Shown here: positions 1 to 61,451 of the stretch, piece after piece | Layout of the letters: the number at the start of each line of letters is the position of its first letter | How positions within the stretch are numbered: position 1 is the first letter of the stretch | Virus record (IMG/VR): IMGVR_UViG_3300025632_000003 | Coordinates: 1 to 61,451 of that record | Source of the DNA: a virus | DNA: 61,451 nt | Direction: 5' to 3' (one strand) | Notes under the pieces: generated by a model | Seen by the model: only the letters and a program-made list of their open reading frames with translations | The model's database searches: none | Told to the model about the DNA's origin: nothing | Position numbers and translations under genes: made by a program

Positions 1-312
1 AAAAAGAAGGAGGAAAAAGGAAGTTGCGCAAAGTCACCTGCTAAAAAGACAGCAGCTTGGACACGTAAGGAAGGTAAATCAGAAACTGGTGGCTTGAATC
101 AAAAAGGTGTTGATGCTTATAAAAGAGACAACCCTGGATCTAAACTACAAACAGCAGTTACAACAAAACCATCTAAACTTAAAAAAGGTAGTAAAGCCGC
201 TAAGCGTAGAAAATCGTTTTGCGCAAGAATGAGCGGGATGCCAGGGCCTATGAAAAAACCTAACGGAGAGCCAACAAGAAAGAAGTTAGCTTTAGACAAA
301 TGGAATTGCTAA
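1..312 (+). CDS. Basic DUF6321-like protein, 3' part (gene crosses the circle join)
   Basis: This is the C-terminal part of a 127-residue protein whose start codon is at 61253; joining 61253-61324 to base 1 keeps the frame. The complete product is Lys/Arg-rich, has S-P-x-K-type motifs near its N terminus, and ends in a block containing RRKSFCARMSGM and a final KWNC. That C-terminal block resembles DUF6321-type proteins of uncharacterised function common in marine phages (recognised from memory, not searched). The stop overlaps the next start as TAATG. Function unknown; a DNA- or virion-associated role is inferred from its composition and neighbours. Confidence 0.8.
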   Translation, partial: KKKEEKGSCAKSPAKKTAAWTRKEGKSETGGLNQKGVDAYKRDNPGSKLQTAVTTKPSKLKKGSKAAKRRKSFCARMSGMPGPMKKPNGEPTRKKLALDKWNC

Positions 313-957: not shown

Positions 958-1548
958 ATGCAAAGCGTTTTTAATTATCTAGTAAAACCAAAAGGCGATA
1001 GAACCGTTGGGTTTAAAAAAATAGAAGGGCAAACATTATTACTCAACACAGATCTACAGAATCACAGTTATACGAATAGAGTAGGGACAATACTTAATTT
1101 ACCTCTAGTTGGTAATGAAGAATTAAAAGAAGGAGATGACGTAATTGTGCATCATAATGTTTTTAGAAGGTTTAGAGACGTTAGAGGTAATGAGAAAGAC
1201 AGTAAAAATTATTTAGCTGAAGATGTTTATACTGTACAAGCTGATCAAATATACGCTTTTAAAAGAGACGACGAATGGAGAGCCTTAAAAGGGTTTTGTT
1301 TTATTAAACCCATAAAAGAAGACAAGATGTTTTCTGCAGCATTTGAGAAGCCATTAATAGGTATTGTAAAACTAGGTAATGACGAAATAAAAACCGAGTC
1401 ATTAGTAGGTTTTAAGCCGAACTCAGAATATGAGTTTGTAATAGAAGGGCAGAGGTTATACCGAGTACCCGCCAATTCAATCACAATTAAATATGAATAC
1501 AAAGGAAACGAAGAGGAATATAATCCTAGCTGGGCAAAAGGCAGTTGA
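958..1548 (+). CDS. GroES-like co-chaperonin-type protein, 196 aa
   Basis: Residues about 1-110 read like a divergent chaperonin-10 fold: a V-K-P strand near the start, a loop, an NRVGTIL strand, then LKEGDDVIVHHNVF, which matches the 'x-x-G-D-x-V' strand of GroES, followed by a KGFCFIKPI segment. A second, weaker half (GIVKLGNDE onward) may be another barrel. The phage also encodes GroEL and a short GroES elsewhere, so this would be a second co-chaperonin-like protein, placed just before the terminase. The family call is from motif memory; a structural search would decide between a co-chaperonin and an unrelated beta-barrel. Confidence 0.55.
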   Translation: MQSVFNYLVKPKGDRTVGFKKIEGQTLLLNTDLQNHSYTNRVGTILNLPLVGNEELKEGDDVIVHHNVFRRFRDVRGNEKDSKNYLAEDVYTVQADQIYAFKRDDEWRALKGFCFIKPIKEDKMFSAAFEKPLIGIVKLGNDEIKTESLVGFKPNSEYEFVIEGQRLYRVPANSITIKYEYKGNEEEYNPSWAKGS

Positions 1549-1768
1549 GGAGTTAATAAAAGTAGCTAAAGAGCCTATTGTAGATTCAGACGACGACCTA
1601 ACTGCGGATAAACTTAAAAATGCCGCAGCCACAAAAAAACTAGCTATATTTGACGCTTTTGAAATACTAACACGTATAGAGGAGGAAGAAAGAGTGTTGG
1701 AGAACAAACCTAAGAAAGAGCTTGAAACAATAGAGTTCAAAGGCTTTGCTGAAAACAGATCTAAGTAA
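1493..1768 (+). CDS. Possible small terminase subunit, 91 aa
   Basis: Acidic, all-helical looking protein lying directly before the large terminase and overlapping it by TAATG. It contains DSDDDLTADKLKNAAATKK and an AIFDAFEILTRIEEEE helix. Its start lies 56 bases inside the preceding gene in another frame. Small terminase subunits are typically short, helical and next to terL, so position and character suggest this role, but I see no recognisable helix-turn-helix. It could instead be a packaging accessory. Confidence 0.5.
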   Translation: MNTKETKRNIILAGQKAVEELIKVAKEPIVDSDDDLTADKLKNAAATKKLAIFDAFEILTRIEEEERVLENKPKKELETIEFKGFAENRSK

Positions 1769-3978
1769 TGTACGAGCAGAATCTATATAAGGTAGTAACC
1801 CCTGTAAAACTTACAACTATTTCTAGACTTAATAAAAGTAAGAAGTGGGGGTATGGATACAACAAAGAGCACAACATTGTAGTAATAAGCAAAACTGGTC
1901 AAATAGGTGAAATATACGAAATACAAAACCTTAGGATAGCTTTGCCGAAGTCACCAGGGAAGTTAGATAAGACAACAGACAGATGGACTGTCGAGGAGTA
2001 CCCTAGAGAATTAAATGCTATAAAGAGTATATTTGATTGGAGGGATTATCCTGAAGATTTTAAAACTAAATGGGGACCATATATAGATGAGCAATTTAAT
2101 AAAAGAGAAAACGGACACTGGTTTAATAATAAGGGCGTGGATACTTACATTACTGGTACTCACTTTATGTACCTGCAGTGGTCCAAGATTGATGTTGGGA
2201 AGCCAGAATTTAGGGAATCAAACAGATTATTCTACATATTCTGGGAAGCTTGTAAAGCAGACAGAAGAAGTTATGGTATGTGCTATCTCAAGAACAGACG
2301 TTCAGGGTTTTCATTCATGGCATCTGGGGAGACCGTTAATATGGCAACAATATCGTCCGACGCGCGTTTTGGGATTTTGTCCAAATCTGGCGCCGATGCA
2401 AAGAAAATGTTCACAGATAAGGTTGTACCCATTTCTGTTAACCTGCCGTTCTTCTTTAAACCCGTACAAGACGGTATGGACAGACCGAAGACAGAACTTG
2501 CGTACCGAGTACCTGCGTCAAAATTCACAAGGAGGCGACTCGATTCGAATAAGGCCACAGAGATCATCGCAGGACTTGACACAACGATTGACTGGAAAAA
2601 CACCGGTGATAACGCGTACGATGGGGAGAAACTCAAACTTCTCGTCCATGATGAATCGGGTAAATGGGAAAGGCCGAACAACATCCTCAACAACTGGAGG
2701 GTTACGAAAACAACATTAAGGCTAGGGGCAAGAGTTATTGGAAAGTGTATGATGGGATCAACGTCAAACGCTTTAGATAAAGGTGGTGAGAATTTTAAAA
2801 AGCTATATGCAACATCAGACGTTACAAAAAGAAACGCTAACGGACAAACTCGCTCAGGATTATATTCTTTGTTCATTCCTATGGAATGGAATTACGAAGG
2901 ATTCATTGATGCTTATGGGATGCCTGTATTCAATACCCCACCAGAAGGCTGTGAGGACTCACATGGCGACCCTATTGAAGTCGGAGTCATAGAACATTGG
3001 AATAATGAGGCTGAAGGATTAAAAGGCGACCAGGACGCTCTAAACGAATATTACAGACAGTTCCCTAGAACAGAGGAACACGCTTTTAGAGATGAAACTA
3101 AAAACAGTATATTTAACTTAGCAAAAATATACGAACAAATAGATTACAACGAAGACTTAGCTAACAGTAATGTAGTTACAAGAGGTAGTTTTCAATGGCA
3201 AAACGGTATAAAAGATTCTAAAGTTATATTTAGTCCAAATCCACAAGGTAGGTTCTTAATAACTTGGACACCTGCTCACGATATACAGAACAGGCAAATA
3301 ATTAAGAATGGAGCTAGATACCCTGGTAACGAACACATGGGTGCTTTGGGTTGTGATAGTTATGATATATCAGGAACAACAGACGGGAGAGGATCTAAGG
3401 GAGCATTGCATGGGTTAACTAAATTTAGTATGGAAGACGCACCTCCAAGTACTTTCTTTTTAGAATATATAGCAAGGCCTCAAACAGCTGAGATATTTTT
3501 CGAAGATGTGCTAATGGCTTGTGTATTTTACGGAATGCCTTTATTATGTGAAAACAACAAACCTAGGCTTTTGTATTATTTTAAGAGAAGAGGCTACAGA
3601 GGATACTCAATGAACCGACCGGATAAACTTTGGAATAAGTTGTCGGTAACAGAAAAAGAAATAGGTGGAATACCGAATTCAAGTGAAGATATAAAACAAG
3701 CGCACGCATCTGCTATAGAAATGTATATAGATAGTTACGTAGGTTTAAAGTCAGATGGAAATTACGGTACAATGTATTTCACAGAGACATTGAATGACTG
3801 GTCTAAATTTGATATAAATAATAGAACAAAGTTTGATGCGGCAATAAGCTCCGGCTTAGCGATAATGGCATGCAACAAAGATCTATACAGGCCGAGTGCT
3901 CCAATACAAAAAAGAACAATGAAAGTTAAATTTGCAAAATATAGGCAAGACGGCAATTTATCCGAGATAATAAAATAA
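1768..3978 (+). CDS. terL: Large terminase subunit (packaging ATPase/nuclease)
   Basis: Motor that threads DNA into the prohead and cuts the concatemer. At 736 residues it is on the long side. The N-terminal ATPase region has a deviant phosphate loop around residues 171-185 (KNRRSGFSF) and a Walker-B-like VHDES near 295. The C-terminal nuclease has an acidic cluster at about 525-535 (LGCDSYDIS) and a further FDAAISSGLA segment near 687, where terminase nucleases place metal ligands. It is followed four bases after its stop by the portal, the usual partner. The stretch at about 2300-2720 uses noticeably more G/C-ending codons than its flanks. Confidence 0.85.
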   Translation: MYEQNLYKVVTPVKLTTISRLNKSKKWGYGYNKEHNIVVISKTGQIGEIYEIQNLRIALPKSPGKLDKTTDRWTVEEYPRELNAIKSIFDWRDYPEDFKTKWGPYIDEQFNKRENGHWFNNKGVDTYITGTHFMYLQWSKIDVGKPEFRESNRLFYIFWEACKADRRSYGMCYLKNRRSGFSFMASGETVNMATISSDARFGILSKSGADAKKMFTDKVVPISVNLPFFFKPVQDGMDRPKTELAYRVPASKFTRRRLDSNKATEIIAGLDTTIDWKNTGDNAYDGEKLKLLVHDESGKWERPNNILNNWRVTKTTLRLGARVIGKCMMGSTSNALDKGGENFKKLYATSDVTKRNANGQTRSGLYSLFIPMEWNYEGFIDAYGMPVFNTPPEGCEDSHGDPIEVGVIEHWNNEAEGLKGDQDALNEYYRQFPRTEEHAFRDETKNSIFNLAKIYEQIDYNEDLANSNVVTRGSFQWQNGIKDSKVIFSPNPQGRFLITWTPAHDIQNRQIIKNGARYPGNEHMGALGCDSYDISGTTDGRGSKGALHGLTKFSMEDAPPSTFFLEYIARPQTAEIFFEDVLMACVFYGMPLLCENNKPRLLYYFKRRGYRGYSMNRPDKLWNKLSVTEKEIGGIPNSSEDIKQAHASAIEMYIDSYVGLKSDGNYGTMYFTETLNDWSKFDINNRTKFDAAISSGLAIMACNKDLYRPSAPIQKRTMKVKFAKYRQDGNLSEIIK

Positions 3979-3982
3979 TAAT

Positions 3983-6415
3983 ATGGCTAGAGGCGTAACA
4001 AATAGTTTTTTTCCAAGTCAAGTTGTAAGTGATCAAGAGAAGATGTCTTTTGATTATGGGTTACAAGTTGGTAGAGCAATTGCTAATGAATGGTTTGATG
4101 GTAATTCCGGAATAACTAGATTTAAAAGCAATCAAAATACATTCAATGCTTTAAGATTGTATGCAAGAGGAGAGCAACCTATACAAAAGTATAAAGACGA
4201 AATGTCTATAAACGGAGATTTATCTTACCTAAACTTAGACTGGAAACCCGTACCTATTTTATCTAAATTTGTAGATATTGTAGTTAATGGTATATCCGAT
4301 AGAAGTTTTGATATCACAGCTTACTCTCAAGACCCTTACGGTATTTCTAAAAGGACCGCTTATATGGAGTCCATAATCAGAGATATGCAAACGCAAGAAT
4401 TAAACAACTTTGCTCAAGAGCAATTTGGTATTAATCTGTTTGAGAATGCTCCTGATAAATTACCTGACTCTGAAGAGGAGCTAGATATACACATGCAACT
4501 TAGCTACAAGCAAGGTATCGAGATAGCGGAAGAAGAAGCTATTAATACAATGCTTGTTACCAATAATTACGATTTAACAAAAAGAAGAATAAACGAAGAT
4601 TTAACTATACTAGGTATTGGAGCTGTTAAGAACAACTTTACAGAATCTAATGGAGTTACTGTTGAATACGTAGATCCAGCTTATATGGTTTATTCTTATA
4701 CAGAAGACCCCTACTTTCAAGATATATATTATGTAGGTGAAGTAAAATTTGTGCCTATTAATGAGCTTAAGAAACAATTCCCCGATTTAACACAAAGTCA
4801 GTTAGAGCAAATTCAACAACAAGGAACACAGAATAAGGGTGTATATAACAATAATTTAACCAACGACTATAATAACAACAGAGACTCAAACGTAATACAG
4901 CTTTTGTACTTTAATTACAAAACTTATATGAATGAGGTTTACAAGGTTAAAGAAACAGCAACCGGCGCAACTAAGGTAATAGTAAGAGATGATCAGTATG
5001 ATCCACCTATAGAAGCTTATGAAGCAGAGTACGGTAAGTTATCTAGATCTTTAGAAGTGCTATACGAAGGTGTGATGGTATTAGGTACTAACCTATTATT
5101 GCGATGGGAAATGGCTCCGAATATGATGCGACCTAAAAGTGATTCATCTAAAGTTAAAATGAATTACTCTATTACTGCACCTAGAATGTATCAAGGCAAG
5201 ATAGAATCTATAGTTAGTAGATGTACAGGTTTTGCAGATATGATTCAATTAACTCATTTAAAGCTACAGCAAGTACTTCAGAGAATGATACCTGACGGTG
5301 TTTATTTAGACGCTGATGGTATTAATGAAGTTGATTTAGGTAACGGAACTAACTACAACCCTCAAGAAGCGCTTAATATGTTCTTCCAAACAGGATCTGT
5401 TATTGGTAGATCGTTCACCCAAGATGGAGATATGAATCCTGGAAAAGTTCCAATTCAGGAAATACAAACTGGTAGTGGTGGTCAAAAAATGGCAACATTA
5501 ATTCAGACTTACAATTATTATCTACAAATGATAAGAGATGTAACTGGATTAAACGAAGCGAGAGACGGTAGCACACCTGATTCAAGAGCTTTAGTGGGTA
5601 TTCAAAAAATGGCGGCAGCAAATTCAAACACAGCTACAAGACATATACTAGATGCCGGATTGTTCTTAACAAAAGAAACAGCGGAGTGCTTATCTCTTAG
5701 GATATCTGATATATTAGAATACCATCCAGCTAAAGAGGCTTTTATTCAAAAGATAGGTGGATTTAATGTAGCTACTCTAGAAGAGCTAAGTGACTTGCAT
5801 TTACACGACTTTGGTATATTTTTAGAGTTAAGACCTGATGATGAACAAAAACAGGTTTTGGAAAACAATGTACAAGTAGCTTTACAAGCAGGTTTAATAG
5901 ATTTATCCGATGCTATCGATATCCGCGAAGTTAAAAATATAAAATTAGCTAATCAATTGCTGAAAGTTAAGCAAAAAAAGCGTCAAGAAAGAATTCAAGC
6001 TGAACAGCAAGCTAACATACAAGCACAAGCACAAGCAAACGCTCAAGCCCAGCAAGTAGCAGCTCAAGCTGAAATACAAAAGGATCAGGCTCTATTCTCT
6101 ACAAAATCTCAACTTGAACAGTTGAAAGGGCAGATCGAACAACAAAGAATACAAGTTGAAGTAGCAGCAAAGAAAGAATTGATGGAGCTGGAATTTCAGT
6201 ACAACATGAAACTTAAAGATGTTGAGGTTGAAGCTATGAAGGCAAAAGAAAATTCCATAGAAGACCGAAAGGACAAGCGTACTAAGATGCAGGGTACGCA
6301 ACAGAGTGAGATGATTGCTCAAAGACAACAAGATTTACCACCAAAAGACTTTGAATCGTCGGGAAATGACGTGATGGGTGGTGGATTTGGCTTAGGTTCC
6401 TTCGAACCTAGGTAA
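3983..6415 (+). CDS. Portal protein
   Basis: An 810-residue protein between the large terminase and the scaffold/capsid genes, which is the portal position. The N-terminal two thirds look globular alpha/beta and contain the conserved-looking GLNEARDGSTPDSRALVGIQKMAAANS segment region near residues 520-555 (quoted in part as RDGSTPDSRALVG), typical of podoviral-type portals. The last ~150 residues are a long Gln/Ala/Lys coiled coil, followed by a Gly-rich tail, as in portals with a C-terminal barrel or extended helix. It would form the dodecameric DNA channel at the capsid vertex. Confidence 0.8.
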   Translation: MARGVTNSFFPSQVVSDQEKMSFDYGLQVGRAIANEWFDGNSGITRFKSNQNTFNALRLYARGEQPIQKYKDEMSINGDLSYLNLDWKPVPILSKFVDIVVNGISDRSFDITAYSQDPYGISKRTAYMESIIRDMQTQELNNFAQEQFGINLFENAPDKLPDSEEELDIHMQLSYKQGIEIAEEEAINTMLVTNNYDLTKRRINEDLTILGIGAVKNNFTESNGVTVEYVDPAYMVYSYTEDPYFQDIYYVGEVKFVPINELKKQFPDLTQSQLEQIQQQGTQNKGVYNNNLTNDYNNNRDSNVIQLLYFNYKTYMNEVYKVKETATGATKVIVRDDQYDPPIEAYEAEYGKLSRSLEVLYEGVMVLGTNLLLRWEMAPNMMRPKSDSSKVKMNYSITAPRMYQGKIESIVSRCTGFADMIQLTHLKLQQVLQRMIPDGVYLDADGINEVDLGNGTNYNPQEALNMFFQTGSVIGRSFTQDGDMNPGKVPIQEIQTGSGGQKMATLIQTYNYYLQMIRDVTGLNEARDGSTPDSRALVGIQKMAAANSNTATRHILDAGLFLTKETAECLSLRISDILEYHPAKEAFIQKIGGFNVATLEELSDLHLHDFGIFLELRPDDEQKQVLENNVQVALQAGLIDLSDAIDIREVKNIKLANQLLKVKQKKRQERIQAEQQANIQAQAQANAQAQQVAAQAEIQKDQALFSTKSQLEQLKGQIEQQRIQVEVAAKKELMELEFQYNMKLKDVEVEAMKAKENSIEDRKDKRTKMQGTQQSEMIAQRQQDLPPKDFESSGNDVMGGGFGLGSFEPR

Positions 6416-7695: not shown

Positions 7696-9141
7696 ATGGC
7701 AGGATTTGCACAAGCGCCAGCTACATTAGCTAATTTAGCGCATTTAACACCAAGACCAGTAAAAGGTTTATTCGGAGACAACTATTTGTCTTTACAGGAT
7801 ATGGACTGGGCACAACAATTTTTACCAGAAGTATATGAGAAAGAAGTAGAGAGATACGGTAATCGTACTATCGCTGGTTTCTTACGTATGGTTGGAGCAG
7901 AGATGCCTATGGCTTCTGATCAAGTAGTTTGGTCTGAACAAGGGAGATTGCATATCGCTTATGATACTGTAGAATCTAACGCTACAGGTACAGAAATATC
8001 TATACCTTCTCCTGGAGCAGATGGAAAAGTTCCGTTATTAGGTCCTGGAATGACGGTTGTTATTTCAAAAGGTAACGTAACAAATAAAGCTTTTATTGTA
8101 TCAGCAGGAGCAGTTGCTGGTGGATTACAGCCTTATACCATTAAAGCATACGATACAGCTACTGGAGCATTAGACGTAGCTCTTCAAGGAGCAACAGCGG
8201 CATTGCCTCTTAACTTATTCGTATTTGGTTCTGAATATGGAAAAGGATCTAGCTTAGCTGGTAATTCAGTTGACGCTTCTTTCACTACTTTCAGTAACAA
8301 ACCAATCATCTTAAGAGACAAGTACTCTGTAAATGGTTCAGATGTTGCTCAAATTGGATGGGTTGAAGTTACTACTGAAATCGGAACAGGTGGATACTTA
8401 TGGTATTTAAAATCTGAGCATGAATCTAGAATTCGTTTTGAAGACTATTTAGAAATGAGTATGGTTGAAGCAACTAATGCACAAAGTGCTTTTACAGATG
8501 CATCAGGAGCAGCTATCACAGGTACTCAAGGTTTATTCTCTACTATTGAAGAAAGAGGATTGGTTTACAACGACCCAGACTTTGGATCAGTTACAGCACC
8601 TACTGGTATTTCTCAGTTTGACGAAGTATTACAAGAACTAGACAAGCAAGGAGCTATTGAGGAGAACATGTTATTCTTGGATAGAAGTACATCTTTATCT
8701 ATTGACAATATGTTAGCTGCTCAAAATTCTTATGGAGCTGGTGGTACATCTTACGGTGTATTTGACAACTCTGAAGATATGGCTTTAAACCTTGGATTCT
8801 CAGGATTCAGACGTGGAGCTTATGACTTCTACAAAACTGACTGGAAATATCTAAATGACTCTACAACTCGTGGATTAATCGACGACGTTAAAGGTGTATT
8901 AGTACCAGCTGGAACTTCTACAGTTTATGACCAACAATTAGGACAGAACATCTCAAGACCTTTCTTACACATCCGTTATAGAGCTTCAGAGGCTGATGAC
9001 AGACGTTTGAAATCTTGGGTTACTGGTTCAGTTGGAGGAAACTATACAAGTGACGAGGACGCAATGAATGTTCACTTCTTATCAGAAAGAACAATGTGTA
9101 CTCAAGCTGCTAACAACTTTGTATTATTCAAAGCAACTTAG
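7696..9141 (+). CDS. Major capsid protein
   Basis: A 481-residue protein immediately after the putative scaffold. It has features of HK97-fold capsid proteins of crAss-like and related phages: a helical N terminus (LPEVYEKEVERYGNRT), a long beta-rich middle and a C-terminal LHIRYRASEADDRRLKSW segment. Codon use is visibly more regular than in neighbours (many TTA/GGA/ACT, few rare codons), consistent with high expression. A strong hairpin follows the gene at 9163-9189, which would suit a highly transcribed capsid gene. Confidence 0.8.
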   Translation: MAGFAQAPATLANLAHLTPRPVKGLFGDNYLSLQDMDWAQQFLPEVYEKEVERYGNRTIAGFLRMVGAEMPMASDQVVWSEQGRLHIAYDTVESNATGTEISIPSPGADGKVPLLGPGMTVVISKGNVTNKAFIVSAGAVAGGLQPYTIKAYDTATGALDVALQGATAALPLNLFVFGSEYGKGSSLAGNSVDASFTTFSNKPIILRDKYSVNGSDVAQIGWVEVTTEIGTGGYLWYLKSEHESRIRFEDYLEMSMVEATNAQSAFTDASGAAITGTQGLFSTIEERGLVYNDPDFGSVTAPTGISQFDEVLQELDKQGAIEENMLFLDRSTSLSIDNMLAAQNSYGAGGTSYGVFDNSEDMALNLGFSGFRRGAYDFYKTDWKYLNDSTTRGLIDDVKGVLVPAGTSTVYDQQLGQNISRPFLHIRYRASEADDRRLKSWVTGSVGGNYTSDEDAMNVHFLSERTMCTQAANNFVLFKAT

Positions 9142-18822: not shown

Positions 18823-18838
18823 CAAATAAGAAACACAC

Positions 18839-19165
18839 ATGGACGAAATAACTTTAACTTTCCCTAAACCTATAAATGTATCTGTACAGGTAGGCGACAC
18901 CGCTTACTACACGAACGATATAAACGGTAAAGATATTAAATTAATAGGGTTGATAACGAATATCGGCGGTAGCAGTTTTACTGCTCAAATCAGTTCGTCT
19001 CAGGTGAGACCAACAACAGCTAGCTTCATATTGTTCAGTAAGACAGCAAGCGTTAACACTAGCGGTCTTAGAGGCTACTATGCTGAAATGCAGTTCAAGA
19101 ATGATTCAACAGCTTATGCTGAGCTGTTCTCTGTAGGCTCGGAAATATTTATAAGTAGCAAATAA
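18839..19165 (+). CDS. Hypothetical tail-region protein, 108 aa
   Basis: Beta-rich protein (MDEITLTFPKPINVSVQVGD) without cysteines. It closes the group of small tail proteins before the internal virion genes. No known family recognised. Confidence 0.65.
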   Translation: MDEITLTFPKPINVSVQVGDTAYYTNDINGKDIKLIGLITNIGGSSFTAQISSSQVRPTTASFILFSKTASVNTSGLRGYYAEMQFKNDSTAYAELFSVGSEIFISSK

Positions 19166-19197
19166 TACGTAATAATAACACATAAAACAATATAATT

Positions 19198-33223: not shown

Positions 33224-33438
33224 TATTTTAAATCCATTTTAGGTTCTACTGGTTCAGCTTCAGCTATTTTTGAAGTAAGTTCGTGTATAGCATCTGCATA
33301 TCCCGGCATTAATTGAACTGTTTGCAATAGCCCTTGAGTTAAGGTATTTAAACCTACTAAATCTCTTATGGTATTATGCATAGCTTCTGCCAGCTTTCCC
33401 ATATCATGCTTCATGTTAATCAGTGTTTGTTCTTTCAT
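33223..33438 (-). CDS. Hypothetical protein between nrdB and nrdA, 71 aa
   Basis: Helical protein (MKEQTLINMKHDMGKLAEAM) whose stop overlaps the nrdA start as TAATG. It contains the ADAIHE segment encoded by one copy of the GCTATACAC word. Possibly a small accessory of ribonucleotide reductase by position, but no family is recognised. Confidence 0.65.
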   Translation of the reverse strand: MKEQTLINMKHDMGKLAEAMHNTIRDLVGLNTLTQGLLQTVQLMPGYADAIHELTSKIAEAEPVEPKMDLK

Positions 33439-33456
33439 TTTGTTTTAGTTTTTAGT

Positions 33457-34425: not shown

Positions 34426-34592
34426 TATATATCTATTATGTATTTAATTGTTTCTAACGTATTCTGCCATGCACTCATATGAGCTAGCATGACAGGTTTT
34501 GTTGTTGATTTATTTACTGTTTTCATATCGTCTAGTATATCTCTAACGAATAGATCTATGGTATGAAACTGAGTTTCTATATCTTCTGACAT
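34425..34592 (-). CDS. Hypothetical protein, 55 aa
   Basis: Small helical protein (MSEDIETQFHTIDLFVRDIL) joined to nrdB by TAATG at its 3' end and to the next small gene by another TAATG at its 5' end. These overlaps support coding. No family recognised. Confidence 0.65.
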   Translation of the reverse strand: MSEDIETQFHTIDLFVRDILDDMKTVNKSTTKPVMLAHMSAWQNTLETIKYIIDI

Positions 34593-34747
34593 TATAAATC
34601 TATTTCTAAAGCCAGATCGACAAACGGCATGTATAGCACATGCGTTACCATATCTACTTGCTTATATGTTCTAAACCCTAATAATATACCAGGATAAATT
34701 CCTAGTGATAACGCCCATCCTTTACTGTCTTCGTCTTTAATTTGCAT
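34592..34747 (-). CDS. Hypothetical protein, 51 aa
   Basis: Begins MQIKDEDSKGWALSLGIYPG and has a hydrophobic central stretch (GILLGFRTY) too short for a sure membrane span. It overlaps both neighbouring small genes and is part of the nrd operon. No known function. Confidence 0.6.
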   Translation of the reverse strand: MQIKDEDSKGWALSLGIYPGILLGFRTYKQVDMVTHVLYMPFVDLALEIDL

Positions 34748-34913
34748 AACATTCTATTTTATATCGTTTATGTAATTTTTCTATATCTGTGGATCTTACC
34801 CTACCTTTAATCTCCCAGCTCCATTTAATGAACTTTTCAATTTGGCGCTCAGCGTATTTTTGCCTTGCTATCCTTTTTGCTTCGAAAGGATTAACCTTAC
34901 TGTCTCTTGACAT
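34737..34913 (-). CDS. Basic hypothetical protein, 58 aa
   Basis: Lys/Arg-rich helical protein (FEAKRIARQKYAERQIEKF). The start shown lies 46 bases inside the 3' end of the upstream nuclease gene in another frame, and the end overlaps the next gene by 11 bases. A nucleic-acid-binding role is possible from charge only. Confidence 0.5.
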   Translation of the reverse strand: MSRDSKVNPFEAKRIARQKYAERQIEKFIKWSWEIKGRVRSTDIEKLHKRYKIECYAN

Positions 34914-35326
34914 TCTGCTTGATTTTGTGGTTTATAAATCGTATACCCCGGGAATTGATTAGTAACTAATTGTTTAAATAGTTTCCATCGCATAGGGAAT
35001 GATTCATTAGCTCTACCCTTTGTTTCTATTATAAAGTCTTCGCCAATAAAATCCGGTGTATACTTAATAGGTAGTATTCGCTTACACCCTCTATTTTTGT
35101 ATTCGCCTTTACCATTCGCTTGTCTTTCATATACTTCATTCTCAAAATGAAAACCGTTCAATAGAACAAATGTTTCTCCTTCGTATTTGCTTTTTATACC
35201 AGCTTCTTTCATAGCCACATACATATGCTTCTCAAGACCTGAAGCAAAGTCGATACCGTCATAGAATACCTTCTTTGCTCTTACCGGTCCTCGTTTGCCG
35301 GTTTTTCTTTTAAAAGACTTCCTCAT
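34868..35326 (-). CDS. PD-(D/E)XK endonuclease, likely Holliday-junction resolvase type
   Basis: A 152-residue basic protein with the nuclease core YTPDFIGEDFIIETKGR (Asp, then Glu-x-Lys) near residues 92-108. A basic N terminus and a conserved GLEKHMYVAMKEAG helix precede it. Size and motif order match T7 endonuclease I-like or DUF1064-like phage nucleases that resolve branched DNA before packaging. Its neighbours are nucleotide and replication genes. Confidence 0.75.
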   Translation of the reverse strand: MRKSFKRKTGKRGPVRAKKVFYDGIDFASGLEKHMYVAMKEAGIKSKYEGETFVLLNGFHFENEVYERQANGKGEYKNRGCKRILPIKYTPDFIGEDFIIETKGRANESFPMRWKLFKQLVTNQFPGYTIYKPQNQAECQETVRLILSKQKG

Positions 35327-35573
35327 CTGAAAATTCTAAGTCCGACAATAAATCTTCTTGTAGCTCTTCAGTATAGGTTTCTTTAGCTTTCTGAAGATAC
35401 AATACAGCATCCATAAGTTCTTCTTGCAAATGATTAAGCCATTCAAACATTCTTGATGGGTCATCTTGCAATGTAACACCATACTTATCAAAGCCTACAT
35501 CAGATCTTGATACAAATTTATTTACAACACGTTTAACAACTGGATCTCTAAACTCTATTTCTTGTTTGCTCAT
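35310..35573 (-). CDS. Small MazG-like/DUF protein, 87 aa
   Basis: Contains RSDVGFDKYGVTL followed by WLNHLQEELMDAVLYLQK, a pattern found in phage proteins near nucleotide-metabolism genes. The E-E-L-x-D-A helix resembles half of an all-alpha NTP pyrophosphohydrolase site. It overlaps the nuclease by 17 bases and abuts the MazG-fusion gene. Enzymatic activity is not certain. Confidence 0.6.
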   Translation of the reverse strand: MSKQEIEFRDPVVKRVVNKFVSRSDVGFDKYGVTLQDDPSRMFEWLNHLQEELMDAVLYLQKAKETYTEELQEDLLSDLEFSDEEVF

Positions 35574-36346
35574 TATAATGTTTCTTTTACGAATGTTCCA
35601 TTAACCATTTTACCTTGTCTAGATTTAATTACGCTATAAGCAGATGCAACACAGTCTTCTATATTATGACCTCTTAGTTTAGCTAAGTTCGTTAGAACAA
35701 CAACCATATCGCCAATAGCATCTATAACTTCTGTTTCATCATTTTTTAATAAAGCTTCTGCAAGCTCGCCTGACTCTTCCATAAGTTTTAAGTACTGGGT
35801 TTTTGAATCACCTTTTGCATATATACCTTTGTCTGCAGCCCAAGTTCTTATCTTATCGTATATGTTCGCTTCGTCACTTAGGTTTGAAGGTTTTTTATTT
35901 TCAGTGCTATTAACTTTAAAAGCTTTGTTATATACATAACATCTGCAATCATTAAACATTGAAGTTCTAGCATTTTTAATTATCCAAGGTATATTTTCTT
36001 TAGTTATTTTAAAAGTTCCGTGTGTTGTTTCCCAGCTTAAGCCTAAATTGTCCATTAATTGGCCTTTCAGCTTGTTTAATGGACATGGAAATGTTGAAGT
36101 CTGCTCTGTAGCGTTAATTGTCATTGAATTGTTTTTATTTATTAAATTTTTATAAGTTTGTCTATCTACTTTATAGCCATAAGACTTTTGAAGTTCTATT
36201 TCCAAGTCAGATATCTCATCGATATCGTCGCTAGTATGTAGAACTTCGTATTCGTCTAAAGCATAACCTTGTTGCTTCGTAACTCTTTTATTAAGATCAC
36301 GTGTTACTCCGATTTTTTTACCAGTAATGTGATATATGTAATACAT
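35573..36346 (-). CDS. GIY-YIG-like domain fused to MazG-type NTP pyrophosphohydrolase
   Basis: A 257-residue protein in two parts. Residues 1-70 (YYIYHITGKKIGVTRDLNKRV and a Glu-rich continuation, quoted here as YIYHI and KIGVTRDL) look like a divergent GIY-YIG nuclease fold. Residues about 165-250 carry the MazG signature EESGELAEAL followed by EVIDAIGDM, i.e. E-E-x-x-E and E-x-x-D metal ligands, expected to hydrolyse surplus NTPs or ppGpp-like nucleotides. The middle is unassigned. GIY-YIG genes are often mobile, so the fusion may have come from insertion of a homing-type gene. Confidence 0.7.
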   Translation of the reverse strand: MYYIYHITGKKIGVTRDLNKRVTKQQGYALDEYEVLHTSDDIDEISDLEIELQKSYGYKVDRQTYKNLINKNNSMTINATEQTSTFPCPLNKLKGQLMDNLGLSWETTHGTFKITKENIPWIIKNARTSMFNDCRCYVYNKAFKVNSTENKKPSNLSDEANIYDKIRTWAADKGIYAKGDSKTQYLKLMEESGELAEALLKNDETEVIDAIGDMVVVLTNLAKLRGHNIEDCVASAYSVIKSRQGKMVNGTFVKETL

Positions 36347-36354
36347 TTTTTAAT

Positions 36355-37173
36355 TTATTTACCAACACTTAGCTCTGCTTTAATTGCAGCGTAAGGATTG
36401 TAGTTTAATAATTTAATTTCATCAGCTTTAGGGATTTTAATTCCAGATCCAGCAGTAATACCTCTACTTAATTCTAATTGAGGCAGTGCTCTTCTAGGTC
36501 TATCTCTATATTCTTTAGCTTGTTCTAAATGATTATTATATAAATGACAATCACCAAGTTGACCAATTAATTGACCAGCTTTATAGCCGGCCCCTTCAGC
36601 TAGCATTTCTAATAGTAAACCATACATTGTAATATCGTAAGGTAAACCTAAGAAAACATCGGCAGATCGCTGTTGCCACATTAAATCCATAACACCATTA
36701 TTGATATAAACTTGAAAAGCATAATGACAAGGAGGTAACGCCATATCGTCTAGCTCGTGTGGAGCCCATGCGCTAACTATCATGCGCCTTGAATCAGGAT
36801 TGTGATTAATGCTATACACAAGTTTTTCGAGCTGATCTACGCCGTTAAAATCACGCCATTGTTTTCCGTATACTGGACCTAATGTTTCATCAGTTCTGCC
36901 TGAGCGTTCATAATCTGGTCGCCAGTACTTAACTCCATTATCTTCAAGATATTTTAAATCAGTTCTACCTTGTAATATCCAAAGCAACTCAGTTCTTGCT
37001 GCATTGAAGCTTATTCTTTTTCCTGTAAGAATAGGGAACCCCAGTGACATATCGTGCCTAATCGTTCTTCCGAAGACAGACTTTGTCCCAGTTCCTGTTC
37101 TATCCGATTTATCCATTCCTCTGTTGAGTATTTCTGATAATAATCCTTTGTATTCATTTTCTATGTTTGTCAT
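36355..37173 (-). CDS. thyA: Thymidylate synthase (ThyA type)
   Basis: Makes dTMP from dUMP with methylene-tetrahydrofolate. Signatures: DRTGTGTKSVFG near the N terminus, ELLWILQG, GPVYGKQWR, the catalytic Cys in LPPCHYAFQ and QRSADVFLGLPYD. The start at 37173 (MTNIENEYKG) gives 272 residues, normal for the family; an ATG further upstream would add 32 unrelated residues inside the preceding gene. Downstream of the primase in the same operon. Confidence 0.93.
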   Translation of the reverse strand: MTNIENEYKGLLSEILNRGMDKSDRTGTGTKSVFGRTIRHDMSLGFPILTGKRISFNAARTELLWILQGRTDLKYLEDNGVKYWRPDYERSGRTDETLGPVYGKQWRDFNGVDQLEKLVYSINHNPDSRRMIVSAWAPHELDDMALPPCHYAFQVYINNGVMDLMWQQRSADVFLGLPYDITMYGLLLEMLAEGAGYKAGQLIGQLGDCHLYNNHLEQAKEYRDRPRRALPQLELSRGITAGSGIKIPKADEIKLLNYNPYAAIKAELSVGK

Positions 37174-37402
37174 AATAGTATTTGTAGTATTCAAATATTT
37201 TTGTCCATATTTCATTTTTACCAAAAGTATCAGGGCTAGTATTAACATTGCCTTTGTTTCTAATATCAATATACCAGGCTTTATCGTTCTTAGCTTTTGG
37301 GGCTATATGAATACCTTCTCTGATACACCATCGCTGCGCGATCCACAAATCCTCGTCAAAAGGAGGTTTGCCCATATCGCACTGACTCTTTTTTACTCCC
37401 AT
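37154..37402 (-). CDS. Hypothetical protein between primase and thyA, 82 aa
   Basis: Begins MGVKKSQCDMGKPPFDEDLW. Trp- and Tyr-rich, with a WYIDIRNKG strand. It overlaps the 3' end of the primase gene and the start of thyA, consistent with translational coupling. Function not recognised. Confidence 0.6.
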   Translation of the reverse strand: MGVKKSQCDMGKPPFDEDLWIAQRWCIREGIHIAPKAKNDKAWYIDIRNKGNVNTSPDTFGKNEIWTKIFEYYKYYYDKHRK

Positions 37403-40943: not shown

Positions 40944-41705
40944 TTAAAGATAATCAATCACTTGTGTTGCGTCGACGTTGGCGATTAAACGGTCAATTGC
41001 TTCTTTTTTTATTTGAGAAACAATTACAATAGCTGTTACAGCAGTGATTCCCACTCGCTTAGCTATTTCTTTAGCTGGCACTTTTTCGCAATCTAAACCA
41101 TAGGACATTCTTAATATATCATATTGTTTTTCCGTAAGATGCTCTCGCATTATACTTAACAAATAAGTGTTGAGTAAGTCAATATTATATGGTTCAGATT
41201 TATCAGCTATATTCATAACCCACGAGGAATTTTCATCATCTTCTCCTTTGTACTCGTTGTCGTAGCTAGCGAATACACTGTTGAAAAACAATGACACTAA
41301 TTTATCGTCATTAGGATTTTTTCTTATTTGTATTAATTTGTTTTCAGGAATCTTTATGTCTCCTCTGTTTATGTCTATAGCTCTCCGTATTGCTCCTTTA
41401 ATTCTTTTGGATAGAAACGACTTTAATGTTTTTTCTATGTCCTCAGAACTGTTTAATTGTTCCCAGTCTAATTTATCAACCGCTAAAACTAATCCAGCAT
41501 TACCTTCTTGTATTAGATCGTTTATACTTAAAACACCTGAAGCTTGATCGCTGGTTGAAAATTTTCTAGCTATATTCTCTACTAAAGGCAGAAATGAAAC
41601 TATTAGCTCATTCCTGGTATAATCTTGAAAAAATTGCTCTAGTGGCATGGATCTTTTTACATCGTTTTTATATCTAACATAATTCTGTATATTGTATTTT
41701 TTCAT
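40944..41705 (-). CDS. Phage-encoded sigma-70-family RNA polymerase sigma factor
   Basis: A 253-residue protein with region 2 (NDLIQEGNAGLVLAVDKLDW and RIKGAIRRAID) and a region-4 helix-turn-helix (LTEKQYDILRMSYGLD and AKEIAKRVGITAV). It would redirect host RNA polymerase to phage promoters; no phage RNA polymerase was recognised, so this is the most likely transcriptional switch. A promoter-like element lies only six bases before the ATG shown, so the transcript may be leaderless or translation may start at the Met 19 codons in (41648). Confidence 0.85.
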   Translation of the reverse strand: MKKYNIQNYVRYKNDVKRSMPLEQFFQDYTRNELIVSFLPLVENIARKFSTSDQASGVLSINDLIQEGNAGLVLAVDKLDWEQLNSSEDIEKTLKSFLSKRIKGAIRRAIDINRGDIKIPENKLIQIRKNPNDDKLVSLFFNSVFASYDNEYKGEDDENSSWVMNIADKSEPYNIDLLNTYLLSIMREHLTEKQYDILRMSYGLDCEKVPAKEIAKRVGITAVTAIVIVSQIKKEAIDRLIANVDATQVIDYL

Positions 41706-53201: not shown

Positions 53202-55547
53202 ATGAAATTTAAAAACTACATAGAGGTACAATCTGGTGTTAAGGACAACAATGCGTCATCTGGTACGCCTGGTCAAATATTGTCGTCCACACAGACAGGT
53301 GTAGAATGGATAAATCAAGACGCTATATCTTCGTCTTCTAACTTTGTTTACTTTTCAGTTAAAAATGAAACTGGCACTACTATACCAAGAGGAGCTGGTG
53401 TAATGGCTGTTGGTACTGACGGCAACTCTGGTCACATACTTATCGATGAGTTTATTGCTGATGGTAGTGTAGAACCTAAGTACTTCCTTGGTTTAATGGA
53501 AGACTCTATAGCTAATGGAGCTTTTGGTAGAGCTGTTTCATTCGGGGAGATAGATCAAATAAATACAAACGCTTTTTCTGACGGCGATGTTCTATGGACG
53601 GATCCAGCAGTTCCTGGCGGTTTAACAACCACAGAACCAGATGGTCCAAACACAAAGCTTGCTGTAGCTATAGTTTTAAACTCTTCTACTAATGGTAAAG
53701 TTTTCTGTAGAGTTCAAGGGAATGAAGGTGTTAACGATTTGCACGACACTAAGATAGTAAACCAGGTAGATGGTGATGTTTTGGTTTGGGATAATACTAC
53801 AGGTGTCTGGTTTAACGATAGCACGTTGAATGTTGATTATACTAACGGTAGAGTTGGTATCGGAACGACTAGCCCTAACTATCCTTTAGAGGTTGTTGGA
53901 AAGTCTGCCTCTAGTGATGGGTTTCATAAAACAGGTTCACAAGGAGTTATTTTATCAGCAGGATCTGGAGCAGATACAGCTGTGATATCTAACGGATGGA
54001 CAAGTGGAGTTGGAGACTGGATGAGATTAGAAGTTCCCTCAGCTGACGACGAAGGAGGGATTATTCAATTAAATTCTAACGGTAACGTCGGGATCGGAAC
54101 GACTAGTCCTGTGGTAGAGTTAGATGTTCAGGGTAGCATATTCACCAGGGGAGGTCTTTACTTTACCCCTAATGGATCTACGTCTAGTGTACCAACCTGG
54201 GGTATGCTGTTGAATGCAGCAGGTGACTTAGTTATAGACGACACAACTGGTCCGCAGAATGTTATATTTTCTAATTCTGGTAACGTCGGTATCGGGACGA
54301 CTAGTCCTAATCAAAAACTGCACGTAAATGGAGGGACTCAGTTAGGTGATTTTAACGCTACAACTAATTTCGGAACGGTAGCATTAAAAGTTGTAGAGGG
54401 AACTGTGGCTACAGGGCCAACATTAGGATCAGGCACTGTAGGTGCTCAAGCGGTGTTATACTCAAATGGGCAATTTGGCATGTACACAGGAGTAAGCAAT
54501 AATGGAGATACTTGGATGCAGTCTCAAAGAAATGATACAGGCACTTCTACTTACAATATACTTTTAAATCCAGCAGGCGGGAACGTCGGGATTGGAACGA
54601 CTAGTCCATCAGCTAAATTATCAGTAAAAAGTAGTGGCACAAACAATTGGGTTTTTAGAGCAACGGCTTCTGACGGTGGAGACTTAGGCGGTATTTACGA
54701 AGACGGTGGAACCAACGCCGAGCTATATATTAAAAATAGCGCTGGAACATCTTCTGTATTAATAAACAGTAGTGGAGACTCTTATTTCAATGGTGGCAAC
54801 GTTGGTATCGGAACAACTAGTCCTACGACCAATTACAGTAAAGTTCTACAAATCAACGCTGCGGGAAATGGGTCAACATTAAGATTAACTGACGTAGGAA
54901 GCGGCTCTGCAGTAGGCAGCGGCTTAGAACTATTACAATATGGAGTGGATTCTTATATTATAAATAGAGAAAACGGGGTAATGCGTTTTTGGAATAATAG
55001 TAGTTCAAAAATGGTTATTTTAGCCAACGGCAACGTTGGTATAGGAACTACTAGTCCTAGCCAAAATTTGCATGTTGTTGGAATTTCCGGAGCTACAACT
55101 GGTCTTCAAATAATAAACAGTTATGGTAGTCCAACTATCAACGCTTATTATAACTCTTTTACAACAAGTGCTTCACTTTATGTTGGTACTCCGTTTTCTG
55201 GGCTAAGCTGTAATGCATCTGCTTTTAATATAACTTCAGATTACAGATTAAAAGAAAATATTATTGAATTAACAGGAGCTATAAGTAAAATAAAAAATTT
55301 AAGACCTGTTAGATTTAATTATAAAAACAAAGAAGAAACTATAAATGGATTTATAGCACACGAGGTTCAGGATGTTGTTCCGGAAGCGGTAACAGGTGAA
55401 AAAGACGCTTTATATGAAGATGGTAAAGAAAAATATCAAGGATTAGATAATGGTAAATTAGTACCTTTACTAACAGCTGCTTTACAGCAAGCTATAGGTA
55501 AAATAGAAGAATTAGAGTTAAGAATACAAACGTTAGAAAATAAATAA
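53202..55547 (+). CDS. Tail fibre/spike with S74 intramolecular chaperone, 781 aa
   Basis: An N-terminal attachment region is followed by six GNVGIGTTSP-type repeats between about residues 216 and 620. The C-terminal ~110 residues contain DYRLKENII and NGFIAHEVQDVVPEAV, the S74 chaperone that folds the trimer and then cleaves itself off (Ser/Lys catalytic pair expected in the DYRLKEN segment), followed by a coiled coil. The repeats are also conserved in DNA (about 30 bases each at 53847, 54081, 54279, 54579, 54795 and 55029), a substrate for recombination that could change fibre length or host range. Confidence 0.85.
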   Translation: MKFKNYIEVQSGVKDNNASSGTPGQILSSTQTGVEWINQDAISSSSNFVYFSVKNETGTTIPRGAGVMAVGTDGNSGHILIDEFIADGSVEPKYFLGLMEDSIANGAFGRAVSFGEIDQINTNAFSDGDVLWTDPAVPGGLTTTEPDGPNTKLAVAIVLNSSTNGKVFCRVQGNEGVNDLHDTKIVNQVDGDVLVWDNTTGVWFNDSTLNVDYTNGRVGIGTTSPNYPLEVVGKSASSDGFHKTGSQGVILSAGSGADTAVISNGWTSGVGDWMRLEVPSADDEGGIIQLNSNGNVGIGTTSPVVELDVQGSIFTRGGLYFTPNGSTSSVPTWGMLLNAAGDLVIDDTTGPQNVIFSNSGNVGIGTTSPNQKLHVNGGTQLGDFNATTNFGTVALKVVEGTVATGPTLGSGTVGAQAVLYSNGQFGMYTGVSNNGDTWMQSQRNDTGTSTYNILLNPAGGNVGIGTTSPSAKLSVKSSGTNNWVFRATASDGGDLGGIYEDGGTNAELYIKNSAGTSSVLINSSGDSYFNGGNVGIGTTSPTTNYSKVLQINAAGNGSTLRLTDVGSGSAVGSGLELLQYGVDSYIINRENGVMRFWNNSSSKMVILANGNVGIGTTSPSQNLHVVGISGATTGLQIINSYGSPTINAYYNSFTTSASLYVGTPFSGLSCNASAFNITSDYRLKENIIELTGAISKIKNLRPVRFNYKNKEETINGFIAHEVQDVVPEAVTGEKDALYEDGKEKYQGLDNGKLVPLLTAALQQAIGKIEELELRIQTLENK

Positions 55548-56440: not shown

Positions 56441-58006
56441 ATGGAATTCAATTTACCAAGTCAGATCGTAAAAGATCTAAGTTTCGGAAACGAAGGTAGA
56501 AATAAAATAATGTCCGGCGTTGATAAATTAGCAAGCGCAGTAAAGTCCACTTTAGGGGCTTCTGGAAAATGCGTAATATACGAAGACGCTATGGGCCGAC
56601 CGGTTATAACAAAAGACGGAGTAACCGTTGCAGAAAGCGTAGTCTTAATGGATCCGGTCGAAAATATAGGTGCAACCCTTATAAAGGAAGCAGCGAGTAA
56701 TACCGTTAGAGAAGCAGGTGATGGTACTACAACAGCTACTGTAATAGCTCACTCTCTATTAACTAATATAAACGAATACAAAGGTGAAGAACAAATTAGA
56801 GATATTAAAAGAAGCGTTGACGAATGTCTTGAAGAAGTTACTAATTATCTTGATAACACCAGGATTGAAGTTGAGGGTGATATGCTACAGCAAGTTGCTT
56901 ACATTAGCTGTAACAATGACGCTGAGCTTGGAGACAAAATTGGCGAAGCATTCGAAAGAGTTGGAAAGACTGGAGTCGTTTTAATGGAGGATTCTGACAC
57001 AAATGAAACGCATGTTGAGTTTGTTGAAGGAACTCAGTTTGAATCAGGTATAAAGTCATCACACTTATTAACAGACAAAGATAAAGGAGTTGCTGTACTG
57101 GAAGAACCGTTGGTCTTAATAGTTAGTTCACCTGTGCCTAATATACGTAGAATCCAAAATATATTGGAACATGTGGTTAAAACCAAACGTAGTTTGTTAA
57201 TAATCGCTCCGCTAGAGCAACAGCCTTTTGCGACGTTATTAGCTAATAAAGTAAAGGGTAATATAAAGGTCAACATTGTAGACCCTCCAGGGTTTGGACC
57301 AACTAAAGCTGATACACTAGAAGACTTAGCTATCCTAACAGGCGCCACGGTCGTAGATGAAGAGCTTGGTGACGACTTAGACCTTTTAGATATTAATGTA
57401 CTAGGCGAAGTTTTAAAGTCCGTTACAGACGCTAAAAACACGATATTGCAAATTAAAGATACCACCTTAGATTTAACAGAACGAATAGAAGAAGTTAAAA
57501 CTAAGATTGATAAAGAGACCAACGCTTATATCAAGATGAAACTAGAGAAGAGATTGTCTATGTTAACCGGTAAGGTTGGTGTTATTTATGTAGGTGCTGA
57601 TTCAGCAGTTGAACTAAAAGAAAAGAAAGATCGAGTAGATGATGCTCTCCACGCTACGAAAGCAGCCTTAATGGAAGGAATAGTAGCGGGTGGCGGTATT
57701 GCATTATTAAATGCGTCAAACAAGATCAAGCCTAAGAATGACGGGTATAAGTTATTATTAGATTCTATTAAAGCTCCTTTCTACACTATATTAGATAATG
57801 CTGGTATTGTTGAAATTAAAAAGCAAACAATTAAGAATAGAGGTATTGACGTTAAAACAGGTAAAGAAGTTAATATGATTAAAGCTGGTATTATAGATCC
57901 AGTATTAGTTACAAAGTCAGCGTTAAAGAATGCGGTTAGTGTGGTAAAGACTATTATATCCGCAGATTGTATAATCTCAAATGTAAGATCCCTTGAACGC
58001 AGTTAA
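56441..58006 (+). CDS. groEL: Phage-encoded chaperonin GroEL (Cpn60)
   Basis: A 521-residue group-I chaperonin subunit. Conserved ATPase motifs are present: ITKDGVTVA near 65, AGDGTTTATV near 92, VGADSAVELKEKKDR near 380, and EGIVAGGG near 408. It lacks the GGM repeats at the C terminus. Expected to form a heptameric ring that folds phage proteins such as the capsid. The GroES gene overlaps its end by 14 bases. Viral GroELs are known from large Pseudomonas phages and marine viromes; in a 61-kb phage it is unusual. Confidence 0.92.
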   Translation: MEFNLPSQIVKDLSFGNEGRNKIMSGVDKLASAVKSTLGASGKCVIYEDAMGRPVITKDGVTVAESVVLMDPVENIGATLIKEAASNTVREAGDGTTTATVIAHSLLTNINEYKGEEQIRDIKRSVDECLEEVTNYLDNTRIEVEGDMLQQVAYISCNNDAELGDKIGEAFERVGKTGVVLMEDSDTNETHVEFVEGTQFESGIKSSHLLTDKDKGVAVLEEPLVLIVSSPVPNIRRIQNILEHVVKTKRSLLIIAPLEQQPFATLLANKVKGNIKVNIVDPPGFGPTKADTLEDLAILTGATVVDEELGDDLDLLDINVLGEVLKSVTDAKNTILQIKDTTLDLTERIEEVKTKIDKETNAYIKMKLEKRLSMLTGKVGVIYVGADSAVELKEKKDRVDDALHATKAALMEGIVAGGGIALLNASNKIKPKNDGYKLLLDSIKAPFYTILDNAGIVEIKKQTIKNRGIDVKTGKEVNMIKAGIIDPVLVTKSALKNAVSVVKTIISADCIISNVRSLERS

Positions 58007-58250
58007 TCACTTTATTATAATCGACAAAATCAAGGAAGCTCCGAAGACAGTAGGAGGACTTGAAATAACACAAAATCAAAATCACGACGTTAGGTACTTA
58101 AAGGGTAACATAATTAGTGTTGGAGATAAGATAGATTTTCTCAAAGAAGGCGATGTTGTTAGATATGACAAACACGCAGGGCACGGAATAGAATGGAATG
58201 ATAAATTGTATTTTGTAATTACAATAGGTGATGTAGTTTTAGTAGAATGA
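57993..58250 (+). CDS. groES: Phage-encoded co-chaperonin GroES (Cpn10)
   Basis: An 85-residue protein with KTVGGLEIT, matching the GroES mobile loop that binds GroEL, then YLKGNIISVGDKIDFLKEGD and VVRYDKHAGHGIEW, matching the GroES core barrel. It overlaps the GroEL gene by 14 bases, so they are co-translated, in reverse order to most bacterial groESL operons. This short GroES makes a complete chaperonin pair. Confidence 0.9.
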   Translation: MNAVNHFIIIDKIKEAPKTVGGLEITQNQNHDVRYLKGNIISVGDKIDFLKEGDVVRYDKHAGHGIEWNDKLYFVITIGDVVLVE

Positions 58251-61253: not shown

Positions 61254-61451
61254 TGGCGTACAAACAGGAACCTAAATCCCCAATACTAAAAAGATGTTGG
61301 GAAGGGTACTCTCCGGTGCCTGGCAAAAAGAAGGAGGAAAAAGGAAGTTGCGCAAAGTCACCTGCTAAAAAGACAGCAGCTTGGACACGTAAGGAAGGTA
61401 AATCAGAAACTGGTGGCTTGAATCAAAAAGGTGTTGATGCTTATAAAAGAG
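61253..61451 (+). CDS. Basic DUF6321-like protein, 5' part (continues at base 1)
   Basis: Start codon and first 66 residues of the gene whose remainder is read at 1-312. The N terminus has KSPILKR, a YSPVPGKKK segment and AKSPAKKTAAW, so it also belongs to the S-P-x-K group. Bases 61325-61451 duplicate 1-127, so the true gene is counted once in the circle. Confidence 0.8.
   Translation, partial: MAYKQEPKSPILKRCWEGYSPVPGKKKEEKGSCAKSPAKKTAAWTRKEGKSETGGLNQKGVDAYKR
61325..61451 (+). repeat. 127-base terminal overlap with bases 1-127
   Basis: The last 127 bases are the same as the first 127. The overlap falls inside a coding sequence and keeps its frame across the join, so it most likely reflects assembly of a circular or circularly permuted genome rather than a true terminal repeat. 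Confidence 0.9.

Follow-up and report, generated by a model that had tools for sequence, protein, structure and literature searches.

The IMG/VR virus record IMGVR_UViG_3300025632_000003 carries a groEL gene, a groES gene that overlaps its end and, beside the packaging genes, a third gene for a GroES-like protein. This locus raises the question of why a phage encodes a chaperonin together with two kinds of co-chaperonin, and whether these genes are a recent capture from a host or the parts of a folding machine of its own. We analyzed the whole record of 61,451 bases, referred to here as the window, together with related phage and bacterial loci.

Genome layout

The two ends of the window are identical over 127 bases. 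The record therefore represents the whole of a circular genome of 61,324 bases, which was opened arbitrarily. The features used below are the following.

1..127, no strand: terminal repeat copy 1, identical to 61325-61451
958..1548, plus strand: tandem Cpn10, a predicted double-domain co-chaperonin of 196 aa (AlphaFold2 and fold search)
1493..1768, plus strand: 91-aa ORF between the tandem Cpn10 and TerL (ORF call)
1768..3978, plus strand: terminase large subunit, TerL (PHROG 6681, E = 9.5e-164)
3983..6415, plus strand: portal protein (PHROG 6547, E = 1.7e-149)
7696..9141, plus strand: virion structural protein, 481 aa, 52.0 kDa (PHROG 13704 'virion structural protein', E = 3e-97)
56441..58006, plus strand: groEL, group I chaperonin, 521 aa, 56.4 kDa (Pfam PF00118 Cpn60_TCP1)
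57993..58250, plus strand: groES, single-domain co-chaperonin, 85 aa, TTG start (Pfam PF00166 Cpn10, E = 7e-9)
61325..61451, no strand: terminal repeat copy 2, identical to 1-127

Measured around the circle, 4,031 bases separate the end of groES from the start of the gene at 958-1548. That gene is followed by the 91-aa ORF, the large terminase, the portal, one more ORF and the probable capsid protein. The product of 7696-9141 is likely the major capsid protein and a candidate chaperonin substrate; its match to Pfam Crass_capsid is weak (E = 0.006, below the cut-off). The 91-aa ORF is kept in relatives, with 354 blastp matches in the fetched loci (contigs counted repeatedly), and its product is possibly the small terminase. 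Flavobacterium phage elemo, Maribacter phage Panino and Cellulophaga phage phi38:1 have no annotated gene at the corresponding position upstream of TerL.

Several features lie elsewhere in the genome. Thirteen dispersed 51-nt repeats occur on the minus strand between 39532 and 50569, with the pattern TACAAA-N4-A(C/T)ACGA-N8-9-GATAATAT, which some copies keep only loosely. Eight of the 13 lie at the start of an early minus-strand ORF or within 23 bases of it, and the repeats look like a phage early promoter. One promoter-like repeat stands at the start of a gene for a sigma-70 family factor (40944-41705, minus strand; Pfam regions 2 and 4), which may read the other twelve. Genes for thymidylate synthase and the large and small subunits of ribonucleotide reductase lie at 31502-37269 on the minus strand. 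The translation of a large ORF at 53202-55547 contains repeated GNVGIGTTSP motifs, and we take its C-terminus to resemble the S74 intramolecular chaperone.

A groEL-groES pair in reversed order

Both members of the pair are unambiguous by Pfam and PHROG, as the preliminary description had it. The Cpn60_TCP1 match spans GroEL as a whole-length domain (residues 30-514, E = 2.7e-47), and the protein belongs to PHROG 5725, 'chaperonin groEL' (E = 7e-133). GroES belongs to PHROG 3188 (E = 2e-11). It has the Cpn10 domain and a mobile-loop-like segment, GGLEIT, and its AlphaFold2 model (pLDDT 91) adopts the Cpn10 fold, aligning by VIA with Thermus Cpn10 (1wnr) at Z 11.3 and rmsd 1.6 over 75 residues. 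Its TTG start is supported because relatives use ATG or TTG at the aligned position (ATG in 77 of 130 relative GroES ORFs, TTG in 39, 14 not assignable).

The two genes overlap by 14 bases (57993-58006), and their order, groEL then groES, is opposite to that of bacterial groESL. This claim of the preliminary description was upheld by the 79 bacterial GroEL loci that we fetched, in 70 of which groES preceded groEL and in none of which it followed. Among the fetched viral loci that offered 400 or more bases of downstream sequence, GroES directly followed GroEL in 119 of 120, the exception being phi38:1, and the 14-base overlap recurred in 53 of the 119. When distinct IMG/VR GroEL proteins were considered, GroES was the next gene downstream in 92 of 92. 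The loci behind this and the other neighborhood counts are related and partly overlapping, and the counts are therefore not independent.

The earlier view that it is uncommon for a 61-kb phage to carry both subunits needs qualification. A tblastn search of 50,697 phage records with the window GroEL matched 280, including 73 from Flavobacterium, and GroEL had already been reported in this phage group.

A GroEL from a phage-only group

The closest bacterial GroELs were 43% identical to the window protein (among the best 80 of 593 stretches in the scan). First quick trees had long branches; the maximum-likelihood tree described here used 70 of 114 rows, with part of the bacteria dropped and without three long rows (Staphylococcus phage Machias, Halocynthia phage JM-2012 and phi14:2). 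In this tree, 20 IMG/VR rows, including the window, grouped with elemoF, Panino, MW202828, phi38:1 and Calle_1. This group contained no bacteria (branch support 100/96), immuto joined it next, and a 100/99 branch separated it from all 38 sampled bacteria. Branching among elemo, Panino and the remaining phage group was weak (support 40/27 and 41/24). The ancestry of the window GroEL is thus phage-only, and nesting within a single host genus, named in the preliminary description as the sign of recent capture, was not seen in the 70-row tree. Four Vibrio phage GroELs stood beside E. coli, and those of Bacteroides phage SJC03 and a 735-kb phage fell among Bacteroidota; these look like separate captures, unlike the window's group.

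Residues were counted across 93 distinct viral GroELs, namely that of the window and those of the fetched IMG/VR loci. We take D52, D87, D398 and the GDGTTT motif of E. coli GroEL to be ATPase residues. The window GroEL keeps all three aspartates and the motif; across the viral set, D87, D398 and T89-T91 were present in 93 of 93 and D52 in 91 of 93, with the other two gapped. The apical positions that we compared are, to our understanding, the E. coli GroEL sites for GroES and substrate binding, and they were altered as a group: L234Q in 92 of 93, Y203H in 82, F204L in 76, and Y199 replaced by L or I in 89. The window GroEL has hydrophobic residues at 199, 204, 237, 259, 263 and 264, histidine at 203 and glutamine at 234. 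The polar residues at 203 and 234 in the phage clade could weaken Cpn10 docking. A GGM-type tail was absent from all 93 viral GroELs and present in 77 of 79 bacteria, and the inter-ring positions 452, 461 and 464 were not conserved in the phage clade. A 66.6-kb relative (record G009) has its GroEL broken across two reading frames at 18236-19692, through either sequencing error or real decay.

Judged from these alignments, the ATPase site appears unchanged, the face that meets lid and substrate remodelled, and the GGM tail lost. The remodelled face and lost tail lend indirect support to the earlier suggestion of a chamber adapted to this phage.

The gene upstream of the terminase encodes two predicted Cpn10 domains

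The protein encoded by 958-1548 had been described as GroES-like. Structure prediction bore out the Cpn10 fold, twice over; the description had missed the double-domain architecture. The N domain comprises about residues 1-104 and the C domain about residues 105-181.

Sequence searches with the protein alone gave no Pfam match, and a PDB sequence search with the 196 residues found nothing useful; the protein was assigned to PHROG 13932, 'co-chaperonin GroES' (E = 6e-15). Relatives from IMG/VR amounted to 366 ORFs, 296 of them unique, with 119 representatives at 75%, and 101 of the 119 entered the alignment (four named-phage rows and 14 others were left out). Pfam Cpn10 detects 31 of these 101 family members (E up to 0.1), and the window's own protein is not among the 31.

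The AlphaFold2 model had a mean pLDDT of 86.1 and a pTM of 0.79, with a pLDDT of 73 for residues 121-130. Its top PDB match was 7ekq_R, listed as 'Cpn20 co-chaperonin subunit' (Foldseek E = 1.9e-5, TM 0.57), which VIA-align superposed on model residues 1-180 (Z 9.7, rmsd 4.0, 156 aligned). Taken separately, residues 106-180 of the C domain matched the GroES 8wuc_a (Z 8.6, rmsd 2.1, 74 aligned) and N-terminal residues 1-102 the GroES 8wuw_a (Z 8.0, rmsd 3.2, 81 aligned). Non-Cpn10 structures, mostly dehydrogenases and oxidoreductases, begin at Z 5.2.

Profile comparisons with hhalign were controlled by 20 column shuffles each, which reached at most 7.3%. The C half matched 73 bacterial GroES at 96.3% probability (shuffles at most 2.2%) and phage GroES at 61.8%, and the N half matched phage GroES at 87.2% (shuffles at most 3.5%). 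Because the N half scored 27.8% against bacterial GroES and 3.1% against the C half, the case for the N domain depends chiefly on its predicted structure and on the match to the profile of phage GroES. Collectively, the predicted fold and the matches of the half profiles lead us to regard 958-1548 as a tandem Cpn10.

The two halves differ in their loops. Across the 101 tandem sequences, positions 27 and 28 of the N-half loop are hydrophobic in all and position 29 in 83, forming a stretch of the type LLL/LIL; the C-half loop has no conserved hydrophobic triplet in the same 101. The C half, keeping the fold without a conserved hydrophobic loop, therefore probably adds to the dome and would not grip GroEL. 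We had considered that loss of the C loop was tied to possession of a phage GroEL, and dropped the idea, as phi38:1 has a GroEL yet, by alignment, an apparently hydrophobic C-loop segment.

A viral protein of 304 aa in BFVD (A0A516L046) matches the tandem model with a TM of 0.71 by query length and could hold more than two Cpn10 domains. A cellular source in Bacteroidota was considered and dropped: the full tandem was found in none of 148 genomes drawn from a larger group, and the one that matched did so in the C domain only (positions 106-190, E = 4.5e-5).

Distribution of the chaperonin genes among phages

The named relatives are Bacteroidota phages: Flavobacterium phage elemo, Cellulophaga phage phi38:1 and Maribacter phage Panino. 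Elemo (Elemovirus), phi38:1 and Calle (Pervagoviridae), Panino and Caudoviricetes sp. MW202828 encode GroEL and a single Cpn10, as here, and a tandem homolog of 180-194 aa upstream of TerL; identity to the window in this set is 28-34% for the tandem and 37-41% for GroEL. The groEL-then-groES order recurs in elemo, Panino and MW202828, whereas in phi38:1 Cpn10 precedes GroEL with one ORF between them. Cellulophaga phages phi46:3 and phi18:3 (Pachyviridae) carry a single Cpn10 together with a tandem of 200 aa, whose gene stands two genes before TerL, and no Cpn60 match was found in either of these complete circular records. The phi46:3 tandem protein matched the profile at E = 2.7e-13 and is 19% identical to the window's. 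Immuto has GroEL and a single Cpn10 without the tandem, and Gundel_1 has none of the three. In phi14:2 (Crassvirales; L470), GroEL is present and neither kind of Cpn10 was detected; the tandem profile found no match in its genome, and g095, upstream of TerL, was dropped as a tandem homolog after a profile comparison gave 0.1% probability.

The position of the tandem gene is constant. TerL followed it at a distance of no more than 1.5 kb in 352 of 352 loci long enough to show it and for 283 of 283 distinct proteins, in line with the earlier placement of 958-1548 beside the terminase, except that the overlapping 91-aa ORF intervenes.

Among 20 large IMG/VR records of 46 to 77 kb, which are possibly incomplete, the tandem was present in all 20, and GroEL and the single Cpn10 each occurred in 18. 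Nine had been selected by GroEL, and all nine carry the tandem; of the 11 selected by the tandem, nine carry GroEL and the single Cpn10. The same two records lack both, and unless they are fragments, these tandem-bearing records speak against the two kinds of Cpn10 traveling together. In the named tandem-bearing genomes checked, the single Cpn10 accompanies the tandem in 7 of 7, window included, and both were kept in 2 of 2 complete tandem carriers without GroEL. Because these two, phi46:3 and phi18:3, are closely related, they count as one evolutionary case. Since both Cpn10s are present there without GroEL, the tandem need not be paired with a phage GroEL.

A proposed folding chamber with two kinds of lid

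We consider it reasonably probable that these genes equip the phage with a folding chamber that takes both single and double lids and probably serves head proteins. With its fold and intact ATPase residues, the phage GroEL would form an ATP-driven ring. This ring would be capped by the ordinary Cpn10 encoded by the gene overlapping groEL and also by the tandem Cpn10 from the packaging and head gene cluster, with the GGLEIT loop of the former and the LLL/LIL loop in the N half of the latter docking on the remodelled apical face. By analogy with T4 gp31, the chamber would most likely fold a head protein, for which the 52-kDa capsid protein is a candidate. We infer such a lidded chamber for head proteins from T4 gp31, the chloroplast lids, the expression of GroEL by phi38:1 and the 52.0-kDa candidate. 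Methylated peptides of the phi38:1 GroEL (gp054) are reported from infected cells and virion samples (PMC13288928). Our literature search found no chaperone-function experiment in this phage lineage.

One tentative elaboration, suggested by chloroplasts, is a mixed seven-domain lid of, for example, three tandems and one single Cpn10, the phage tandem being of independent origin. The mismatch between even and odd numbers would then be solved as in chloroplasts and the Cpn10 pair would be the conserved unit; in Pachyviridae without a phage GroEL, the lid would take the host GroEL.

It is rather unlikely, in our judgment, that the phage runs two machines, in which the single Cpn10 caps the phage GroEL and the tandem is a gp31-like lid that enlarges or alters the host GroEL chamber for phage head proteins. 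The tandem's location in the head and packaging cluster, apart from groEL, is consistent with this arrangement, as is its presence in phi46:3 and phi18:3 without a GroEL of their own, and T4 gp31 operates in this way (PMC3012670). Immuto, with GroEL and a single Cpn10 but no tandem, fits as well without being decisive. However, phi46:3 and phi18:3 retain the single Cpn10, so the tandem is not the sole lid there.

We regard as improbable a role of the tandem outside chaperonins, as a ring adaptor that either acts in packaging or at the portal in place of a small terminase or caps a ClpP-type protease. Such a role would suit a gene that directly precedes TerL in elemo, Panino and phi38:1, a nearest solved structure that is the Cpn20 of a chloroplast ClpP complex entry (7ekq) and a C half without the conserved hydrophobic loop. 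However, the N half conserves a loop of the GroEL-docking type, the single Cpn10 co-occurs in 18 of the 20 large IMG/VR records and all 7 named tandem genomes, and the window has a separate small terminase candidate in the 91-aa ORF.

Recent capture of a host groESL without special significance would account for the host-type character of GroEL and GroES, and the GroELs of some Vibrio and Bacteroides phages do group with those of bacteria, but it is very improbable here and, on the sequences sampled at present, appears refuted by the 43% identity of the top bacterial match (best 80 of 593 stretches), the phage-only group set apart from 38 bacteria at 100/99, the reversed gene order and the absent GGM tail.

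Relation to earlier work and to known systems

Virioplankton chaperonins were reportedly treated by Marine et al. 2017, and the earlier report of GroEL in this phage group is that of Nishimura et al. 2017. Of the 78 environmental genomes that it places in the phi38:1 group, 36 have GroEL homologs (PMC5332604), and the Panino paper mentions GroEL and GroES homologs (PMC11590407). Database entries already label the tandem 'co-chaperonin GroES' or 'cpn10'. Our literature search, which covered subscription journals thinly, found no paper describing a tandem Cpn10 in a phage; what seems to be new is thus the double Cpn10 architecture, the GroEL of this phage group itself being already published.

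Double-Cpn10 co-chaperonins are described as a plastid specialty (PMC5780408). A tandem and a single Cpn10 beside the packaging genes of widespread Bacteroidota phages would offer a second, tractable case in which to ask how even-numbered lids fit a seven-fold ring, and would also reveal whether phages can tailor a lid to a single cargo. Some isolates can be grown on cultured hosts, namely elemo on Flavobacterium sp. BAL314 and phi38:1 and phi46:3 on Cellulophaga baltica, and they include a natural contrast between genomes with and without GroEL.

The combination of a folding chamber with single and double lids that we favor has its described counterpart in chloroplasts. Plastid and apicoplast Cpn20 has two Cpn10 domains head to tail, as in the 958-1548 model, and Cpn20 of Chlamydomonas chloroplasts is the closest structure across both domains. 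At a sequence identity of 17-19%, the likeness is one of architecture and fold, and we make no claim of common descent. Cpn20 presumably has GroEL-docking loops in both halves, unlike 958-1548, whose C half is without a conserved hydrophobic docking loop. Chloroplasts also have a single Cpn10, tandem and single forms make mixed rings, and even-numbered sets of Cpn10 domains still function on the seven-fold ring (PMC5780408). The same paper quotes a folding chamber of ~60 kDa, inside which the 52.0-kDa capsid candidate would fit.

Phage systems provide two further comparisons. T4 gp31, a phage-encoded co-chaperonin of the Cpn10 fold, is a lid that adapts the GroEL chamber to the capsid protein (PMC3012670). 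Both halves of 958-1548 align to gp31 (2cgt_O, Z 6.5, rmsd 1.6, 62 aligned; 1g31_A, Z 6.0, rmsd 2.9, 69 aligned), a resemblance of fold. However, gp31 is a single domain acting on host GroEL, whereas here two co-chaperonins accompany a phage GroEL. Pseudomonas phage EL encodes its own GroEL-like ring, which does not interact with the GroES of E. coli and for which a mechanism independent of encapsulation has been proposed by the authors (PMC7185714). Unlike that of phage EL, the window GroEL is accompanied, on genomic evidence, by Cpn10 genes.
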